A stretch of DNA of 64,000 bases. Origin: Pleurocapsa sp. PCC 7319 (GTDB lineage Bacteria; Cyanobacteriota; Cyanobacteriia; Cyanobacteriales; Xenococcaceae). Position numbers and translations under genes: made by a program. The notes under the pieces were generated by a model. That model worked only from the letters and a program-made list of their open reading frames with translations, was not told where the DNA came from and searched no databases. Below, in pieces: positions 7,029 to 16,389 of this stretch. Location: assembly GCF_000332195.1 (NCBI RefSeq), contig NZ_KB235922.1:1237902-1301901 (forward strand). Direction: 5' to 3'. Position 1 is the stretch's first letter. Every line of letters starts with the position of its first letter.

Positions 7029-7673
7029 ATGTTTAATGAACTGTCTCAATCAAGAGATTCTCAGAGCGACTATTCGCAACCTAAAATAAATATTCATAAG
7101 CGATTACTATCTCCTTTTCAAAAAAAGTTACTTCAAGAAAAATTGCAGACAAATCTACGCCCAGAGTATCGTCGGCGAATTGAAATCATGTTGCTAGCAG
7201 ATCGAGGATGCTCTCAAACTAAAATTTGTGCTACTTTAAACTGTTCTCATGAAACAGCCCGATATTGGACTCGTGTGGCTCAAGCGGGAGATGCTCACAA
7301 GTGGCAAGAATTACCCATAGGTAGACCCAAGACCGTTAATGAAAGATATCTCAATCGATTACAAGAACTAGTCAGTCAAAATCCTCAAGATTTCGGCTAT
7401 GCATTTAACCGTTGGACAGCATATTGGTTAAGTAAGCATCTAGCTGAGGAGCTTGGCATACAAGTAAGCGAACGCCACGTTAATCGCTTATTAAAAAAGA
7501 TGGGATTATCAACGCGTCGATCGCGATTAGATGTAGATATGGATAGTTCATCAATACACCATTTCCAGGAATTAAATTCATTAAAATCACAAAATTCCAA
7601 CATTATTATAGGCAATCTCAAGGGGAGTAAACCAGCTCAGATCGCTAGTTTTAGTCCTTTTCAACTCACATAA
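7029..7673 (+). CDS. Transposase-derived helix-turn-helix protein, likely regulator
   Basis: 214 residues. Residues about 47-85 form a helix-turn-helix (CSQTKICATLNCSHETARYW), and 115-165 form a winged helix-turn-helix (GYAFNRWTAYWLSKHLAEEL, then a VNRLLKKMGLS end) like that of IS630-type transposases. The DDE catalytic domain that follows in such transposases is absent; instead there are about 50 low-complexity polar residues. I saw no inverted repeats or target duplication around it. GAGG at 7012 may serve as ribosome site for ATG 7029. It lies 37 bases upstream of the exporter gene on the same strand, so it is more likely a domesticated DNA-binding protein of the secretion operon than an IS remnant. 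The DNA target is unknown. Confidence 0.75.
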   Translation: MFNELSQSRDSQSDYSQPKINIHKRLLSPFQKKLLQEKLQTNLRPEYRRRIEIMLLADRGCSQTKICATLNCSHETARYWTRVAQAGDAHKWQELPIGRPKTVNERYLNRLQELVSQNPQDFGYAFNRWTAYWLSKHLAEELGIQVSERHVNRLLKKMGLSTRRSRLDVDMDSSSIHHFQELNSLKSQNSNIIIGNLKGSKPAQIASFSPFQLT

Positions 7674-7710: not shown

Positions 7711-10700
7711 ATGTATATTGATTTACTATCTCAATCGGTATTTAAAAAACGCCTTCAACAACAATTAGAAAAGACATTTGCCAGATCTCTATCTCTATCC
7801 GAACTAGAACAGTATTTGCCGGTAATCAAACTAGTTGAACCTTCTACGGGAAAACAATTCTGGCAATCAAACCAGTCAATTCCAGGTATTTATTTAATTT
7901 TGACAGGAAAAGTTAGATTATTTGACGTCTATGGTCAATTGCTAACTTCCTCAGAAGAGGGAACATCTTTTGGCGAACTGACATTATTTCCTCAAGAATC
8001 TTTTTGCCCTTATCTTGCCCGAGCTTCTTTTAGATTGAGGCTAGCATTTATTCCTGGCTCTTTAATACAAACGCTGATTAAAGACGATCCTCATTTAGAA
8101 GAACATCTAAAACAACAAGCACTATTTCAAGACTTACTTTTACTATGTCGCCAGTCTGGCGAATTTAAGAGTATTTCGGTAGATAAACTAAAATCTGTAA
8201 TTCCTTTATTGCAACGTCACGATCTAAATCAGGGGCAATTAATATCTTCATCATCGTCGAAACAGTTTTTCTGGCTGCTTAGAAAGGGGGAATTAGAAAA
8301 TGAGAATAGTCAGAAATTGACCTCAGGTACCATCTACTTTCCTCAGCAATCTGAGTCTCAAAAATCCTGGCAAGTTGATCTACCTACTGAATTGTATAGT
8401 CTGAGTTATGAAGACCGTGATGCCGTCCAACTACATTCATCGCCATTACATTCTTCAGAATCAGAAATTTTAGCAACTTCTCAAGATACAGTACTGTCAA
8501 ATAATGCCTTATCACCTATCAAGGTAAAACCAGTTCAGGCGATCGACTTACCAAATACTATCTCTCAGGAAAATAAACCATCCCATAAGGAACGACGAGC
8601 ATATTTCCCTTCCCCAAGACAGCGAGTTGGACATTTATGGCAAAGACTCACCCAACGTTATCCCTACTATGCACAACAGAGTGTAAGTGACTGTGGTGCA
8701 GCATGCCTGATTATGATTGGACAGTATTGGGGAAAAAATTATAGTCTTAATCGACTACGAGATTTAGCTAATGTTAACCGTAACGGCTCTACCCTCAGAG
8801 GTTTAGCTTCAGCAGCCGAGACTATTGGTTTTGTAACCCGTCCTGTTAAAGCCACTTTAGATCGTTTGGAGCAACAAAAATTACCGGCGATCGCTCACTG
8901 GGATAACAATCACTATATTGTGGTCTATGAAATCACGAATAAGAAAGTTATCGTTGGCGATCCAGGGATGGGACCAAGGGTTTTAACTCATCGAGAATTT
9001 CAAGCCGGGTGGACTGGTTATGCTCTTTTATTAGAGCCGACCACTTGGCTAGAGGAGGGAAGAGAATCCACTTTTCCGATCTGGCGATTTTTAGAGTTAC
9101 TCAAACCACACTCTCTAGTGCTTTTAGAGGTTTTAATCGCTTCAATTACGATTCAAATTTTTGGTTTGGTTACTCCTCTGTTAACCCAGCTATTATTAGA
9201 TCGAGTAGTAGTCCAGCGCAGTAATCTTACTTTGATGGCTGTAGGTATGGGATTACTAATTTTCGGTCTATTTAGAGTAGCAATTACAGGATTACGTCAA
9301 TATCTTTTAGATCATGTATCTCAAAAAGTAAACGTTTCTCTAATCGTCGGTTTTGTAAGGCACAGTTTCAAGCTTCCTCTTAGCTTTTTTGAATCCCGCT
9401 ATGTAGGAGATATTGTTGCTCGTTTACAAGAAAATCAAAAGATCCAAAACTTTTTAACCGGGGAAGCATTATCGATCTTTCTTGATTTTTTAACCATCTT
9501 TGTCTATGTCGGTTTAATGTTTTGGTATAGCTGGAAGATGGCTCTGTTGGCATTGGTTATTGTACCGCCATTCTTTATCTTGGCTTTAGTTGCGACACCA
9601 TTTCTACAAAAAATTTCGCGAGATATCTTTACCGCTTCAGCAAAAGAGCAAAGCTATGTGATTGAAGCCTTTTCAGGAATTGCTACCGTCAAATCGATGG
9701 CAGTGGAACATCGAGTACGCTGGCGTTGGGAAGAGTTTCTGAATAAGGCAGTAAAAAAAGGTTTTAGCGGACAAATAATTGGTAATAAAGTTCAGGTAAT
9801 TAGTTCCACAATTCAAGTTATTGCAACCACTTCAGTATTGTGGTTTGGAGCTTGGCAGGTAATTCAAGACGAATTAACTATTGGACAATTAATTGCTTTT
9901 AATATGTTACTAGGCAACGTGATTAGTCCTTTTCAACGCTTAGCGGTGTTATGGAATCAAATCCAAGAAGTAATTATCTCCGTAGAGCGAATTAATGATG
10001 TTTTGGAAGCAGAACCCGAAGAAGATTGGCAGACCAATCCCCGTCAGTCTTTGCCTACTATTGCAGGACATCTTCAGTTTCAAGAAGTCAGCTTTCGTTA
10101 TCATCCCGACGATCGAGCCAATGTTATCGAAAATCTGAACTTTGAAGTTCAGCCTGGAAAAACTGTAGCGATTGTTGGTCGCAGTGGTTCTGGCAAAACA
10201 ACTATTGCCAAGCTGATTTTGGCATTGTACCCACCGACAGCAGGAAAAGTACTCGTCGATGGTCACGATCTAGCAAATGTCTCTCCTTCATCCTTACGTC
10301 GACAGGTAGGGGTAGTAGATCAGGCAAACTTTCTCTTTGGAGGCACAATTCGCGAAAACATCAGTGTTAAACATCCTGAAGCTACCCTCGAAGAAATTAG
10401 AGAAGCAGCAGAACAGGCAGGTGCTGATGAGTTTATTCAAAAACTCCCCCTTAAATACGAAACCCTTGTAGGGGAAAGAGGTGGCACACTCTCAGGAGGA
10501 CAATGTCAACGTTTGGCGATCGCTCGTGCCCTATTAGGTAATCCCCGTTTGCTGATTTTAGATGAGGCGACCAGCAGTTTGGATGCTGAATCAGAACGAA
10601 TAATTCAAAATAACCTCAAAACTATCATCAAAGATCGTACAACAATTATCATCGCTCACCGTCTTTCCACAATTCGACAAGCAGACATGATTTTAGTACT

Positions 10701-10803
10701 GGATCAGGGTGTTTTGGTAGAAAAAGGTACTCACGACGGTTTAATGAGCAAAAAAGGACATTACTTCTACCTCAACCAGCAACAACTAGCAGTGTCTCAG
10801 TAA
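7711..10803 (+). CDS. Peptide exporter: cNMP-binding, C39 peptidase and ABC domains
   Basis: 1030 residues from ATG 7711; a TTG four codons upstream is less likely. The N-terminus (about 40-140) resembles a cyclic-nucleotide-binding domain (GIYLILTGKVRLFD...GTSFGEL), followed by a weaker second copy. A C39 bacteriocin-type peptidase domain occupies about 315-440, with Cys328 (in QQSVSDCGAAC), His401 (NNHYIVV) and Asp417 (GDPG), so leader cleavage after Gly-Gly should be possible. Six membrane helices (about 455-745) precede an ABC ATPase with Walker A GRSGSGKTT at 823-831 (Lys829), signature LSGGQ at 927 and Walker B ending Asp951-Glu952. The domain order is that of PCAT exporters and of cyanobacterial HetC-like proteins. 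The five Gly-Gly precursors at 14060-15785 are the obvious cargo. The cNMP domain suggests ligand control; the ligand is unknown. Confidence 0.93.
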   Translation: MYIDLLSQSVFKKRLQQQLEKTFARSLSLSELEQYLPVIKLVEPSTGKQFWQSNQSIPGIYLILTGKVRLFDVYGQLLTSSEEGTSFGELTLFPQESFCPYLARASFRLRLAFIPGSLIQTLIKDDPHLEEHLKQQALFQDLLLLCRQSGEFKSISVDKLKSVIPLLQRHDLNQGQLISSSSSKQFFWLLRKGELENENSQKLTSGTIYFPQQSESQKSWQVDLPTELYSLSYEDRDAVQLHSSPLHSSESEILATSQDTVLSNNALSPIKVKPVQAIDLPNTISQENKPSHKERRAYFPSPRQRVGHLWQRLTQRYPYYAQQSVSDCGAACLIMIGQYWGKNYSLNRLRDLANVNRNGSTLRGLASAAETIGFVTRPVKATLDRLEQQKLPAIAHWDNNHYIVVYEITNKKVIVGDPGMGPRVLTHREFQAGWTGYALLLEPTTWLEEGRESTFPIWRFLELLKPHSLVLLEVLIASITIQIFGLVTPLLTQLLLDRVVVQRSNLTLMAVGMGLLIFGLFRVAITGLRQYLLDHVSQKVNVSLIVGFVRHSFKLPLSFFESRYVGDIVARLQENQKIQNFLTGEALSIFLDFLTIFVYVGLMFWYSWKMALLALVIVPPFFILALVATPFLQKISRDIFTASAKEQSYVIEAFSGIATVKSMAVEHRVRWRWEEFLNKAVKKGFSGQIIGNKVQVISSTIQVIATTSVLWFGAWQVIQDELTIGQLIAFNMLLGNVISPFQRLAVLWNQIQEVIISVERINDVLEAEPEEDWQTNPRQSLPTIAGHLQFQEVSFRYHPDDRANVIENLNFEVQPGKTVAIVGRSGSGKTTIAKLILALYPPTAGKVLVDGHDLANVSPSSLRRQVGVVDQANFLFGGTIRENISVKHPEATLEEIREAAEQAGADEFIQKLPLKYETLVGERGGTLSGGQCQRLAIARALLGNPRLLILDEATSSLDAESERIIQNNLKTIIKDRTTIIIAHRLSTIRQADMILVLDQGVLVEKGTHDGLMSKKGHYFYLNQQQLAVSQ

Positions 10804-10841: not shown

Positions 10842-12833
10842 ATGTCATATTCCCAACCAGAATCAGCTTTAGCTCTTGCTAATGGCAGAGTTAGACCCAA
10901 AATTCGCATCTTAATTATCGATCAGCAAAACCTAAGTAGCGAACTCCTCAAATGCCAACTCAAGCTCGAACCAAATATGTCAATTGTGGCAACGGTTAGT
11001 GACGAATTGGAAACCTTTGTCGCCATCCAAAGCTATGATCCTAATGTGGCGATCGTTGATGTCGATCTACCAGAAATTGATGGCTGTGCCTTAATCAAAA
11101 AAATCAGCCATAATTTCCCCCAGATTAAAATTGTAATTTTTACCAATAACCATCAATCAGATCAGATCAACAAAGCGCTTAGCCTGGGGGCGCAAGGAAT
11201 TTTATATAAAAATTCTTACTCTGAAGAAACTAAAAAAGTTCTTAATACTATCAACAATATCAGTTCAAGAGATACGACACCAGAACTTTTCAATCGGGAT
11301 AATTCTGTTGAACCAACAACTTCTAGCGATAACAATCATATTGACAATAATTCAGCAATAGTTCATTCACCCGGTACAGTAACATTTGAAACCGTAGAAG
11401 AGCGAGAAGATTGGTCCGCAGCAACCAAAGATCTCTTAGATTCACTACCCCGGGTTTGGACAAGGGGCTTACTATATTTCCTCATAATTGGGACAGGAAT
11501 TATTTTGCCTTGGTCAATTCTGACCAAGGTCGATCAGACAGGAACCGCCCGTGGCAGACTAGAACCAAAAGATAAAGTTATTCATTTAGATGCTCCCGTA
11601 GCGGGAAAAATAGAAGCAATCACAGTTAAAGAAGGTGATAAAGTCAAAAAAGGTGCGATTTTAGCTGAATTAGCCTCTGAAATAGTTAATTCAGAACTAG
11701 AAGAATTACAAGACAAACGATTCGGACTTCAGCAAAGGTTGAGCCAACTAGAACTAATGTACAATCAGGCCCGAATTACGCTAAATACTAAAGAAGATGA
11801 AAACCAGGCCAGACTTTTAGAAAAGCAATCTCAGCTAGCTCAAGCACGGCAAAATCTTGATACCCTCAAAGCCCTTTACGAATCTCAAACAGGAGAAAAA
11901 CTGGCACAGATTGAACAGGCAAAACAGGAAATAAATTCCAGTATAGCGGCGCGTAAAGAGGCAGAATTAGCCATGTTAGGTGCCCAGGAAAAAACTAGAC
12001 GTTATCAAGCAGCCTATAGAGAAGGAGTAATTGCTCAAGATCGTTTTTTAGACGTCCAACAACAAGCTAAAGAAAATCAAGAACGGTTAGCTCAAGCAAG
12101 TTCGACCGTAGAACAAGCCAAGTCTCGACTCAAAGAGCAGCAAAATAGTTACCAAAATCTAATTAAGAAATCAAAAGCAGAAATTAAACAAGCCTCTCTG
12201 CGATTCGAAGAACAAAAACGTAGTGACCAAACTTTGATAGCCTCCAGCAAGTTAGAAAAGCTCAAAACAGAAGAACAGCTCCAAGAGTTACAATCTCAGA
12301 TTACTAGTCTAACTAGCGAAATTGCTCAGACTAATAAGCAGCTACAATCTAGACAATTTCAATTAAAACAACGAGAACTAATTGCTCCCATTGACGGGAT
12401 GGTTTTTCATATCCCTGCTAGAGGCAGAGGAGCAGTAGTTCAACCAGGAGAGAGAATGATCGAAATTGCACCACAAGACTCTGCTCTGGTTTTGCGCGCA
12501 CAAATTCCTCCTGCAGATAGTGGATTTCTCCAGCAGGGAATGCCTGTCAAAATTAAATTTGATGCTTATCCTTTCCAGGATTACGGTGTTACCGAAGGCA
12601 CATTAATTTCTGTATCACCAGACTCAAAAGTAACCGAAACTCCTCAAGGCGATCGGGAAAGTTATGAGCTAGAAATAGAATTAGCTCAACCCTATGTTTG
12701 GGATGAAGGCAAGCGTATAACCTTGACCCCTGGTCAAACTGCTACGGCTGAAATAATTATCCGTCAACGTCGCGTAATTGACTTTTTTATCGATCCCTTT
12801 AAGAAATTACAACAGGATGGCATGAAACTATAA
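10842..12833 (+). CDS. Receiver-domain/HlyD fusion, membrane fusion protein of type I export
   Basis: 663 residues. Residues 20-140 form a CheY-like receiver domain with candidate phospho-acceptor Asp73 (VDVDLPEIDG), Thr101 and Lys123; the usual acidic pair near the N-terminus is reduced to Asp27-Gln28. A linker leads to one membrane helix (about 209-226, LLYFLIIGTGIILPWSIL). After it comes a standard HlyD/MFP architecture: lipoyl-like half (APVAGKIEAITVKEGDKVKKG), a long coiled coil (about 280-510) and a beta-barrel end. The receiver domain therefore sits in the cytoplasm and the adaptor in the periplasm. The gene starts 38 bases after the exporter. Control of the channel by phosphorylation is inference. 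I know of no characterised adaptor of this design. Confidence 0.9.
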   Translation: MSYSQPESALALANGRVRPKIRILIIDQQNLSSELLKCQLKLEPNMSIVATVSDELETFVAIQSYDPNVAIVDVDLPEIDGCALIKKISHNFPQIKIVIFTNNHQSDQINKALSLGAQGILYKNSYSEETKKVLNTINNISSRDTTPELFNRDNSVEPTTSSDNNHIDNNSAIVHSPGTVTFETVEEREDWSAATKDLLDSLPRVWTRGLLYFLIIGTGIILPWSILTKVDQTGTARGRLEPKDKVIHLDAPVAGKIEAITVKEGDKVKKGAILAELASEIVNSELEELQDKRFGLQQRLSQLELMYNQARITLNTKEDENQARLLEKQSQLAQARQNLDTLKALYESQTGEKLAQIEQAKQEINSSIAARKEAELAMLGAQEKTRRYQAAYREGVIAQDRFLDVQQQAKENQERLAQASSTVEQAKSRLKEQQNSYQNLIKKSKAEIKQASLRFEEQKRSDQTLIASSKLEKLKTEEQLQELQSQITSLTSEIAQTNKQLQSRQFQLKQRELIAPIDGMVFHIPARGRGAVVQPGERMIEIAPQDSALVLRAQIPPADSGFLQQGMPVKIKFDAYPFQDYGVTEGTLISVSPDSKVTETPQGDRESYELEIELAQPYVWDEGKRITLTPGQTATAEIIIRQRRVIDFFIDPFKKLQQDGMKL

Positions 12834-13158: not shown

Positions 13159-13923
13159 ATGAAACAAACTTTAAAAATTAATCAAACAGCTATTGTTAAT
13201 CATCTCAAACTTTCTCGGCAGCTAGATCGTATTGTAGAGGGAGTAGCTACCTGTCAAATTATTGAATCTAAAGCGGCTGAGTTAGGCATTATTGTTAATG
13301 ATGAAGAACTTCAGCAAGCAGCTGATGATTTCCGTTTAACTCAAAATTTAAACAATATCGAAGCTACATGGCAGTGGTTAGAAAGCAATCATTTATCTAT
13401 GGATGATTTTGAAGCTTTGATCCACACTGATACACTGACGAAAAAACTGGTTCAACATCTTTTTAGCGATCGCGTTGAATCCTTTTTCTATCAAAATCAG
13501 CTCGACTATACGGGGGTAGCGATGTACGAACTGATATTAGACGATGAAGATCTGGCGATCGAATTATTCTGCGCTCTTCAAGAAGGGGAAGTGAGTTTCC
13601 AAGAAATTTCTAGAAGATATGAATCTAATCCTGTTCGCCGTCGCTCAGGGGGGTATTGTGGAGTACTGCAACGACAAAACCTGAAACCTGAAATATCTGC
13701 CGCCGTATTTGCAGCTTCCCCTCCTCAACTATTGAAACCAATAATTACATCTATGGGAGTTCATCTCATCTTAGTTGAAGAGATCATTCGACCCCGGTTA
13801 GATGAAGAGTTACAAAATCAAATTATGTCAACTTTATTCTCCGAGTGGCTACAACAACAGCTAGAAGAAGTTCAAATAGTTACGGAGTTTAGTGAAAACA
13901 AGCAAAATGTTCTAATTCAATAA
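13159..13923 (+). CDS. Parvulin-type peptidylprolyl isomerase (PpiC/SurA-like)
   Basis: 254 residues. The N-terminal half (about 10-110) is helical and resembles the SurA/PrsA chaperone segment (QIIESKAAELGIIVNDEELQ). The C-terminal half (about 115-235) is a rotamase domain with SFQEISRRYESNPVRRRSGGYCGVL and the end motif SMGVHLILVEEI. There is no signal peptide, so the protein is probably cytoplasmic. PpiC-like proteins are common beside double-glycine peptide exporters in cyanobacteria and are thought to hold or fold the precursors. The predicted cores encoded next door contain no proline, which favours chaperone activity over prolyl isomerisation. It converges with the precursor gene at 14060. 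Confidence 0.85.
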   Translation: MKQTLKINQTAIVNHLKLSRQLDRIVEGVATCQIIESKAAELGIIVNDEELQQAADDFRLTQNLNNIEATWQWLESNHLSMDDFEALIHTDTLTKKLVQHLFSDRVESFFYQNQLDYTGVAMYELILDDEDLAIELFCALQEGEVSFQEISRRYESNPVRRRSGGYCGVLQRQNLKPEISAAVFAASPPQLLKPIITSMGVHLILVEEIIRPRLDEELQNQIMSTLFSEWLQQQLEEVQIVTEFSENKQNVLIQ

Positions 13924-14059: not shown

Positions 14060-14281
14060 TTAGGATGCTCCAGCATCGTTGCTTAAGACAGAGACATTAA
14101 AGTTATCACCACCAAAGGATACTTGCACATTAACATTGTTGTTGATCTGAACAATATTTGTGAATTCAAAATTGAAATATCTTTTTCGATGACCACCGAT
14201 AACAGTACCAGTTTCGCGATCGCTTAATAAGCTTAATTCAGAATTTAATTCTTGTAGTTCAGCAATTTGAATTTTAGACAT
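14060..14281 (-). CDS. Double-glycine leader precursor peptide A
   Basis: 73 residues. The leader is 30 residues (MSKIQIAEL...DRETGTVIGG), ending in Gly-Gly, the cleavage site of C39 peptidases. The 43-residue core has no Cys or Pro and is rich in Asn, Val and Phe. It contains the shared motif Q-x-N-x-N-x3-Q at Gln45, Asn47, Asn49 and Gln53. The second copy of the motif found in the other peptides is degenerate (GDNFNVSVL). AGGA lies eight bases or so upstream of the ATG. It is the last gene in the minus-strand precursor run, nearest the PpiC gene. Export by the C39-ABC protein at 7711 is inferred from leader type and proximity. Confidence 0.85.
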   Translation of the reverse strand: MSKIQIAELQELNSELSLLSDRETGTVIGGHRKRYFNFEFTNIVQINNNVNVQVSFGGDNFNVSVLSNDAGAS

Positions 14282-14476
14282 TTCTTTTCCTCGCTACTAT
14301 TTCTCAGAAGCTATTGTTTTTTCTATAAGCCAAATAAATCACAAATTAAGATATATATGTGGCAATATATTTGCCATATATGAAATCTTTCAATTTTAGT
14401 ATTTTTTCGTTACTGTCAATAAAAATCTTAAATACAAGTCTATTAACAGTAACAATAAGAATTGCTAGTTTGCTCT

Positions 14477-14761
14477 TTACTGAGCAACAAAAACAAAGTT
14501 ATGCTGACTAGTACCGTTAGATTGATCGGTGAAACTATATTTTTGATTGCCAATAGTAATCTGAATAGTTTCGTTTTCATTATTTTGCTCAATATCTGTA
14601 ACATTGACATTAAATCTTGAAGAGATATAAGCACTAAACCCCAGAACACTAGAGCGATACAGATAAGAGGTTCCACCAACAATTTCTGAAGCTTCAGCTT
14701 CGTTTAGCTTCTTAAAATCAGAAGAAAAGGAGTTTAATTTTGTAAGTCGAAGTTTAGTCAT
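14477..14761 (-). CDS. Double-glycine leader precursor peptide B
   Basis: 94 residues, the longest of the five. The 30-residue leader (MTKLRLTKLNSF...EASEIVGG) is diverged from the others but has the same length and ends in Val-Gly-Gly. The 64-residue core has no Cys or Pro. It carries the motif twice: Gln59-Asn61-Asn63-Gln67, and Gln86-Asn88-Val92-Gln94 at the very C-terminus. An open frame at 14443-14682 on the same strand in another frame is a shadow. The ribosome site is weaker than in the neighbours (AGAG). The role is presumed to be secreted material or a signal processed by the exporter at 7711. Confidence 0.82.
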   Translation of the reverse strand: MTKLRLTKLNSFSSDFKKLNEAEASEIVGGTSYLYRSSVLGFSAYISSRFNVNVTDIEQNNENETIQITIGNQKYSFTDQSNGTSQHNFVFVAQ

Positions 14762-14980
14762 TTTTAACTCTTATTTAAACTCGAGTTTGATACTATATTT
14801 ATGGTGTATTTTTAACCATTTACGAAGCTAGAAAATATCTAGACAAATTATCTATTCTGCTCAACTAAGTATAAATATATTAGAATGAGCAGAATAGTAA
14901 TATTTCCTACAATAATTACCAAAAAATTTATTACACTAATGATTAATATTTGTTGGCATTACTGAATAATCAGATTAGTA

Positions 14981-15202
14981 TTATTGGTAGACACTAGCTG
15001 AATTATCTTGATAAGTGCTATTGTAATTGCTGGCACTACCGTAGTAGCTATCTGCTATTTGCAAAGTTGAATTGTAGTTGAATTGTGAAATATAAGCAGA
15101 TTTATCAAAGTACCCACCAACAACCTTATTAGTTTGTTGCTCATTTAATGCATCAAATTCAGAAGTAGTTCGGTTGAGTTCTTTGATTTGAATTTTAGAC
15201 AT
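14981..15202 (-). CDS. Double-glycine leader precursor peptide C
   Basis: 73 residues from ATG 15202, which follows a GGAG site; the open frame extends to 15343 but the extra 47 residues run over the preceding gene and do not resemble the family. The leader is 30 residues ending VVGG. The 43-residue core has two motif copies: Gln40-Asn42-Asn44-Gln48 and Gln65-Asn67-Ala69-Val71-Gln73, joined by a Ser/Tyr/Gly-rich linker. The last residue is Gln. Peptides C, D and E are close paralogues placed head to tail, the result of recent tandem duplication. Confidence 0.85.
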   Translation of the reverse strand: MSKIQIKELNRTTSEFDALNEQQTNKVVGGYFDKSAYISQFNYNSTLQIADSYYGSASNYNSTYQDNSASVYQ

Positions 15203-15263
15203 TTTTTTTCTCCAAAAACTAAATATTGATGTATTCCTTTCAATCAAAAAAAATCTACTAATC

Positions 15264-15497
15264 TTATTGGTAGACACGAGCGGAATTATATTGGCTAGTT
15301 GAATTGCTATTGTTAGAACCACTATAGTAATAGCTGTAGCCACCTTCTGCTAGTTGTATAGTAGAGTTGACATTTTGTTGATAGATATCAACATACTTAT
15401 CATAGTATCCACCTATAACTTCACTACATTCTCGATCACTTAAGGTATTGAATCCAGAAGCAGTTACGTTGAGTTTATCAATTTGAATTTTAGACAT
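15264..15497 (-). CDS. Double-glycine leader precursor peptide D
   Basis: 77 residues from ATG 15497, preceded by CTGGAGAAAAAAA, nearly the same upstream sequence as peptide C. The 30-residue leader ends VIGG and contains a single Cys; the 47-residue core has none. Core motif copies are Gln40-Asn42-Asn44-Gln48 and Gln69-Asn71-Ala73-Val75-Gln77, with a Tyr/Ser/Gly/Asn-rich middle (EGGYSYYYSGSNNSN). An upstream in-frame ATG at 15530 would add 11 residues and is rejected because the ribosome site and leader alignment favour 15497. Confidence 0.85.
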   Translation of the reverse strand: MSKIQIDKLNVTASGFNTLSDRECSEVIGGYYDKYVDIYQQNVNSTIQLAEGGYSYYYSGSNNSNSTSQYNSARVYQ

Positions 15498-15563
15498 TTT
15501 TTTTCTCCAGAAAACTAAGTTACGATACAATCTTTTTCACTAAAGCTAATAAGCTTGTTGAAA

Positions 15564-15785
15564 TTATTGATAAACACTAGCGTAATTACTTTGAGAAGTG
15601 TAATTACTATTGCTACTGCTATAGTAGCCACCAGATGCAAATTGAAGTGTATCGTTGTAGTTACTTTGATAGATAGTTGCATATTTATCGCGGTATCCAC
15701 CTATAACTTCAGTAGTTTCTTGAGTATTCAAAAGATTGAATTCAGAAGCAATTTTATTCAACTCGGTAATTTGAATTTTAGACAT
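15564..15785 (-). CDS. Double-glycine leader precursor peptide E
   Basis: 73 residues, first gene of the minus-strand precursor run. The leader (MSKIQITELNK...TTEVIGG) is 30 residues; the core is 43 residues with Gln40-Asn42-Asn44-Gln48 and Gln65-Asn67-Ala69-Val71-Gln73. AGGTGA precedes the ATG. In each copy alternate residues (Q, N, N/A, T/V, Q) would face the same side of an extended strand, with small or aromatic residues between. This resembles curlin repeats in composition, although the spacing is shorter (eight residues from Gln to Gln). The promoter for the run should lie in the 15786-16389 gap. Confidence 0.86.
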   Translation of the reverse strand: MSKIQITELNKIASEFNLLNTQETTEVIGGYRDKYATIYQSNYNDTLQFASGGYYSSSNSNYTSQSNYASVYQ

Positions 15786-16389
15786 TTACTTCACCTAAAG
15801 TTAGGAAAATATTTAATTGATTTTCGAGATTTAAAAAGTTTCTTGTTTTTTCTCGATAGTTTTATTGTGCAACACTAGATTTCGAAAAACAATACTTTTG
15901 ACGATCTTAAATAGACACAAGTATCAGAGTTAAGTCCTCTTTTTAGATTTTATTAATTATTTTCAAAAAAGCTTAATAAGAAACAATATTAAATATATAT
16001 TTTATGTTAGTTACTTCTTTTGTTCCTATTAATTTGTAGTTTTGGCTATCTTATAACTAATATCTTGAATTTTTTTAAAAAAATAAAATTGCTATAAAAC
16101 TAATTTTTTTGATACTTAAAATAGGTAATTAGCTAAATCTTGTTTTTTGTAGTTAAGAAAAATACAAAAAAATAGTTTTTTGTTAAGTCATATAAAAAGC
16201 GTTAAGTCATATAAAAAGCAATTAAGCGTCTTTAATGCTCAAATAAGAGTAAATATCAGGTGATTTTTGCTCAAAATAGCTTTTAAACTAGTACTTAAAA
16301 ACTAAGTTTTTACTAAGAAATATGAACATAATCCCTTGTCAACCGAACTTGATAACCTATTGCTAGTATTTGCTGGTACTCAAAGAAAT
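15786..16389. other. Divergent 0.6 kb intergenic region, likely promoter of the precursor run
   Basis: The region lies between the first precursor gene (minus) and the ABC-class ATPase (plus). It is very AT-rich and contains poly-T/poly-A tracts and a 19-base tandem repeat at 16182-16219. No convincing gene is seen on either strand. It must hold the promoter of the precursor genes unless they use several internal ones. Confidence 0.5.
16182..16219. repeat. 19-bp direct tandem repeat, two copies
   Basis: GTTAAGTCATATAAAAAGC occurs twice without a spacer at 16182-16200 and 16201-16219. Its place in the divergent promoter region would suit a duplicated regulator site, but this is inference. Confidence 0.85.

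Follow-up and report, generated by a model that had tools for sequence, protein, structure and literature searches.

Five short genes of a cyanobacterial DNA, the precursors A to E, most likely encode subunits of cross-β surface fibres that would be exported by the neighbouring C39 transporter; we give this reading, which draws on analogy with known systems, a probability of about 0.6. The genes lie in a stretch of 64,000 nucleotides from Pleurocapsa sp. PCC 7319, the whole of which is called the window here. A β-strand reading of the cores, put forward in a preliminary description of this DNA, was strongly supported by a two-residue period of conservation over two 15-residue stretches, together with two AlphaFold strands in the same places.

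Precursor genes and export operon

The precursors are five short open reading frames on the minus strand, with the transcription order E, D, C, B, A. All five leaders start with M-[ST]-K-[IL] and end with Gly-Gly, and a plausible purine-rich ribosome-binding site was found upstream of most of the reading frames. The genes for the transporter, the HlyD-type adaptor and the SurA-like protein are located on the plus strand and converge on the precursors. The features are:

7711..10803, plus strand: peptidase-containing ABC transporter with CAP_ED/cNMP, C39 peptidase and ABC domains
10842..12833, plus strand: HlyD-type adaptor with an N-terminal response-regulator receiver domain
13159..13923, plus strand: SurA/PpiC-like rotamase-domain protein
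15564..15785, minus strand: precursor E, 73 aa (30-aa GG leader and 43-aa core), first of the precursor run
15636..15680, minus strand: predicted strand 1 of E, residues 36-50, ATIYQSNYNDTLQFA (nine-core conservation and AlphaFold)
15567..15611, minus strand: predicted strand 2 of E, residues 59-73, NSNYTSQSNYASVYQ, reaching the last residue (nine-core conservation and AlphaFold)
15264..15497, minus strand: precursor D, 77 aa (GG leader and 47-aa core)
15348..15392, minus strand: predicted strand 1 of D, residues 36-50, VDIYQQNVNSTIQLA (nine-core conservation)
15267..15311, minus strand: predicted strand 2 of D, residues 63-77, NSNSTSQYNSARVYQ (nine-core conservation)
14981..15202, minus strand: precursor C, 73 aa (GG leader and 43-aa core)
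15053..15097, minus strand: predicted strand 1 of C, residues 36-50, AYISQFNYNSTLQIA (nine-core conservation)
14984..15028, minus strand: predicted strand 2 of C, residues 59-73, NYNSTYQDNSASVYQ (nine-core conservation)
14477..14761, minus strand: precursor B, 94 aa, with a longer core; strand-1 face T-I-Q-N-N-T-Q-T and strand-2 face as in C, D and E
14060..14281, minus strand: precursor A, 73 aa; one predicted strand with the same Q/N face, the other face hydrophobic (Ile/Val)
14117..14161, minus strand: predicted strand 1 of A, residues 41-55, TNIVQINNNVNVQVS

A scan for promoters and terminators around the precursors returned sites no commoner than in shuffled sequences. Upstream of the precursor run, at window positions 16185-16219, an exact 16-base direct repeat, AAGTCATATAAAAAGC, is present in two copies, 19 bases apart.

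The transporter carries the C39 Cys, His and Asp motifs and a Walker A site, and judged by its sequence it is expected to cut after Gly-Gly and to export the cores; its CAP_ED match was marginal (27.1 bits, cut-off 27.5). The SurA/PpiC-like protein is a probable chaperone: the precursors contain no Pro, and it is therefore more likely to serve them as a chaperone than as an isomerase.

An N-terminal receiver on HlyD was also observed at L018:15912-17891, L065:6913-8913, L066:2974-4953, L069:16959-18962 and L072:10290-12365. The domain was confirmed by Pfam in the window and in L018, and was recognised at the other loci by N-terminal sequence and length. The fusion is thus not specific to this cluster, since it is present in other relatives; in L086, a Nostocales-type relative, HlyD is shorter and has no receiver domain. 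The fusion could possibly act as a phosphorylation switch on the export channel. The window (7029-7673) and L019:24-215 both encode, immediately upstream of the transporter, a helix-turn-helix protein similar to the N-terminal portion of a transposase; its occurrence in both genomes suggests a retained, perhaps regulatory, gene.

Sequence motifs and composition of the cores

The motif Q-x-N-x-N-x3-Q, reported earlier for all five cores, was found at exactly the residues given: Q45-N47-N49-Q53 in A, Q59-N61-N63-Q67 in B and Q40-N42-N44-Q48 in C, D and E. A second copy, Q-x-N-x3-V-x-Q, ends on the last residue of B, C, D and E, as had been claimed, and the cores of A-E are indeed free of Pro and Cys, the single Cys of D being located in the leader. 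The description of the linkers as Ser/Tyr/Gly-rich holds for C, D and E but not for A and B.

In shuffled cores motif 1 occurred with a probability of 0.002-0.009 per core and motif 2, exactly at the C-terminus, with a probability of at most 5e-5, values that must not be multiplied across A-E because the paralogues are related. Taken alone, these shuffle statistics are modest evidence, and conservation between species is the stronger test. The core residues N, Q, S, Y, G and T together make up 47-74% of A-E, the charge is near neutral (K+R 1-3, D+E 2-5), and no Pfam or NCBIfam family covering the cores was found.

Sleutel and others (2023) described the curlin half-motif as N-$-psi1-$-psi2-$-Q, in which the psi residues point inward and are small or hydrophobic and the $ residues point outward and are free; two half-motifs are separated by a four-residue arc and their two strands form a β-arch. 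The C-terminal unit N-x-[AGV]-x-[VI]-x-Q of precursors B-E has the strict half-motif form, which B shows twice, its other copy being N-V-T-D-I-E-Q in strand 1. These extend the likeness to curlin beyond what had been claimed. Five strict copies of N-x-psi-x-psi-x-Q were counted across the cores of A-E, compared with a mean of 0.56 after shuffling.

With the form loosened, four copies are found in each C/D/E core, two per strand; this four-unit pattern was defined after inspection, which bears on its shuffle statistics. Each C/D/E core reads K-x-[AV]-x-[ILV]-x-Q, N-x-N-x-[TN]-x-Q, a loop, N-x-N-x-T-x-Q and N-x-[AGV]-x-[VI]-x-Q. A single residue links the two units of each strand, hence the Gln-Gln spacing of eight, which had correctly been described as shorter than in curlin (11 across the arc).

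Conservation of one strand face

Conservation of the Q/N positions in homologues had been set beforehand as a test of the β-strand reading, and the reading survived it for C/D/E and A. The set analysed consisted of nine cores of the C/D/E type, drawn from three species. In all nine, the inward Q and N residues of the motif are unchanged, and the alternate positions vary. In stretch 1, of 15 residues, near-invariant and variable residues alternate as A-x-[ILV]-x-Q-x-N-x-N-x-[TN]-x-Q-x-A, with entropies of 0.5, 2.06, 1.53, 2.5, 0, 2.06, 0, 2.42, 0, 1.84, 0.92, 1.53, 0, 2.06 and 0 bits. Stretch 2, the C-terminal 15 residues, follows the same alternation, N-x-N-x-T-x-Q-x-N-x-[AGV]-x-[VI]-x-Q, less sharply (mean entropies 0.31 vs 1.15 bits).

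The parity difference of strand 1 was 1.70 bits, against a maximum of 0.87 among 224 windows of nine SurA orthologues; strand 2, at 0.84 bits, stayed within this background maximum. For the nine cores, permutation of columns gave p<1e-5 for the parity. The Fourier spectrum of conservation peaked at 180 degrees with little signal at 100, which indicates a β-strand and not a helix. At most of the invariant positions the codons differ synonymously (AAC/AAT, CAA/CAG, GCA/GCT), so the DNA had time to change.

When one gene per species was used in three-way comparisons, strand 1 was matched by 1 to 4 of the 836 background windows. Strand 2 was matched by 11 to 175 of the 836 and is not exceptional in this comparison; the case for strand 2 is therefore made by the nine-sequence set. 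Members of the family were recovered from only three species, all of one genus, so the evidence for selection comes from few lineages.

The other two types were compared likewise. A-type cores have the face [AT]-I-Q-N-N-N-Q-[AS] in all three species, and the strand-1 face of the B-type is kept in two of three. The full pattern is absent from the A of the window and from the B of one species. The B-type paralogue in genome G015 (L018:14246-14509) has lost most of strand 1 and has kept the leader and a YSFT stretch; B may therefore have a separate role.

Structure prediction

AlphaFold was run on precursor E with an alignment of the five window precursors. The monomer was predicted with a leader helix (3-29) and strands at 37-53 and 56-72, at a mean pLDDT of 62.9. 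For the mature core, with an alignment of ten cores from two species, the same two long strands were obtained at a mean pLDDT of 79.0 and a low pTM of 0.39. Since the model is a monomer with two adjacent strands, it shows strand propensity, not an arch or a stack. Together with the alternating constraint, the prediction makes a two-strand structure with one conserved face very probable. When the cores were run as a profile against PDB sequences, nothing but a chance match (E 2.4) was obtained.

Distribution of the precursor family

The same gene set, three C/D/E-type genes, one B-type and one A-type with SurA, HlyD and the transporter, is present in two further genomes of the genus, G015 and G020 (Pleurocapsa sp. 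MO_192.B19). Searching 391 genomes of the order and 386 drawn from the phylum with the core profile yielded nothing convincing beyond the three species of this genus; the phylum-wide search gave one match at E 0.0099, with internal stops. A protein scan of named genomes with precursor E as query found no relatives. With the C/D/E core profile, B is recovered at E=3e-10 in the window and at 3e-12 in G020, and the A-type of G015 at E 7e-5; the three types are therefore related by descent in their cores, and not in their leaders alone.

The equivalent SurA loci of other relatives contain different GG precursors: the machinery of the export module is kept and its cargo has changed. In Waterburya agarophytonicola KI4 (G013), a seaweed-associated pleurocapsalean and further member of the genus, four near-identical GG precursors are found at the orthologous SurA locus (L064:7611-8864). 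Their cores are of another Gln/Asn/Ala/Gly-rich type ending in GASIGVNQTNQ and do not match the C/D/E profile.

GG precursors at L067:9157-9432, L068:14530-14808 and L069:9151-9408 have cores such as VGISQTNVSVQISNVNASNVNVNASNVNI, which alternate strongly between polar residues and Val, and are candidates for another strand-forming family. Those at L081:8668-8949 and L078:16727-16960 differ from the rest at homologous loci in that their cores are extremely rich in Lys and Gly (GKGKGK...) or in Lys and Ser.

Alternative explanations

The usual annotation of such a cluster layout would make A-E bacteriocins or other antagonistic peptides. The GG leaders, the C39 transporter and the multicopy precursors fit the 'bacteriocin' clusters of Wang 2011, and some homologous SurA loci in other cyanobacteria have Gly-rich hydrophobic or Cys-containing, bacteriocin-like cores. 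We nevertheless consider it unlikely for A-E, whose cores are near neutral, rich in Gln, Asn, Ser and Tyr and free of Cys, and scored well below the cut-offs of Bacteriocin_IIc (13.4 vs 27.1 bits) and bacteriocin_sig (12.7 vs 15.7 bits). No immunity gene was recognised near the precursors, and antagonistic cores would be expected to diversify, whereas here one face is invariant across species in the paralogues. Export as signals or differentiation factors that do not assemble has a precedent in HetC, which is a C39 exporter linked to the differentiation of Nostoc cells (PMC10986499). Signals, however, do not need a 15-residue alternating face, and three close copies together with A and B suggest bulk products, so that this role is very unlikely.

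The Q/N pattern could also be compositional and the peptides disordered low-complexity secreted matter, as the high share of N, Q, S, Y, G and T would allow; this is highly improbable given the alternating invariance across species and the exact four-unit spacing in every C/D/E core, neither of which disorder would lead one to expect. Slightly less probable again is the insertion of the cores into membranes as β-hairpins that oligomerise to a pore or barrel. A Foldseek search with the AlphaFold model gave no significant match; the weak top hits (best E 0.16) were to hairpin stems of β-pore proteins, a similarity to be expected of any long hairpin. The second face of A is hydrophobic (Ile/Val; Kyte-Doolittle 2.0 to 2.6) and would suit a pore, but that of strand 2 in C/D/E is polar (-1.0 to -1.5) and that of strand 1 in B is charged, both ill-suited to lipid. 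Apart from A, most strands have a second face of polar, charged or mixed character, which disfavours a pore.

Proposed assembly

Curli-like paired strands with a conserved Q/N face point to products that are probably adhesive fibres and not antibiotics. In the fibre reading, the C39 domain of the neighbouring transporter would cut the leader after Gly-Gly and the ABC/HlyD channel would export the core, the SurA-like protein probably holding the chains unfolded before export. Outside the cell, each C/D/E-type core would form two 15-residue β-strands and a Gly/Ser/Tyr loop, with the inward faces [K]-A-I-Q-N-N-T-Q in strand 1 and N-N-T-Q-N-A-V-Q in strand 2. Judging from the symmetry of the motifs, the strands may face each other as in the curlin arch, through the pairs A36-V71, I38-A69, Q40-N67 and N42-Q65.

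The inward face would make Gln/Asn ladders and a small hydrophobic zipper with the copies above and below, as in curli, and the other face would be free. With one rung per chain, a fibre would need many chains, possibly mixed. Precursor A, with its hydrophobic outer face, may anchor or nucleate the fibre, and the fibres would serve adhesion or the biofilm matrix.

Comparison with known systems

The group I/II 'bacteriocin' clusters of cyanobacteria described by Wang 2011 consist of a long C39 transporter with CAP_ED, HlyD and SurA, and of tandem short GG precursors. The window cluster has this layout (C39 with CAP_ED, HlyD, SurA). It differs in the receiver domain on HlyD, and its cores lie outside the Pfam and NCBIfam families.

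The nearest functional precedent for A-E would be, by analogy, EbfG1-3. In the accessible part of the published work, EbfG1-4 of Synechococcus elongatus PCC 7942 are four small GG-leader peptides secreted via PteB, a C39 peptidase transporter; EbfG is needed for biofilm formation, for which the C39 Cys of the transporter is also essential. The same source reports that EbfG1-3 form amyloid, as seen with Congo red and AmyTracker and, for EbfG2, by electron microscopy, and it reports no homologues of the mature peptides. A GG leader and a linked C39 peptidase transporter are common to both systems. The EbfG N-terminal peptides given there contain Pro (e.g. TTYNPPSYPYPSYPK), in contrast to the A-E cores, and the EbfG hotspot A-[FI]-N-I-[GS] was absent from A-E on inspection; the likeness is therefore one of route and role. 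The Q/N half-motif repeat of A-E is not described for EbfG in that part of the work.

With curli, the A-E cores share an inward face of N, small or hydrophobic residues and Q that alternates with free outward residues. This is a likeness and not membership: Pfam Curlin_rpt PF07012 gave no match for A-E at E<=1 or for the homologues at E<=10, and neither Curlin_rpt nor CsgG was matched above cut-off in the genome itself. CsgA has at least 4 repeats of about 23 residues per chain, each centred on Q-x10-Q, whereas here there would be one two-strand unit, or arch; the half-motifs are joined by one residue instead of an arc, and the route is a GG leader with a C39 exporter instead of Sec/CsgG.

Amyloid GG peptides in cyanobacteria and the curlin zipper are both already known; the literature searched contained no example of the two combined, with one double-width arch in each chain. 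More tentatively, and with the odds somewhat against it, A-E might represent a new class of functional amyloid: a C39-exported single arch with one rung per chain, in which the curlin motif was reinvented at double width (two half-motifs per strand, no arc) and A, with its hydrophobic face, acts as nucleator or anchor. Hundreds of GG-leader peptides from cyanobacteria are listed as bacteriocins, their activity untested. If the fibre reading is true, the sequences of this family would by themselves be enough to identify some of these peptides as fibre subunits and to show how the fold can be read from sequence; the curlin zipper would have arisen on a different secretion route, with a very small curlin-like building block of 43 residues.
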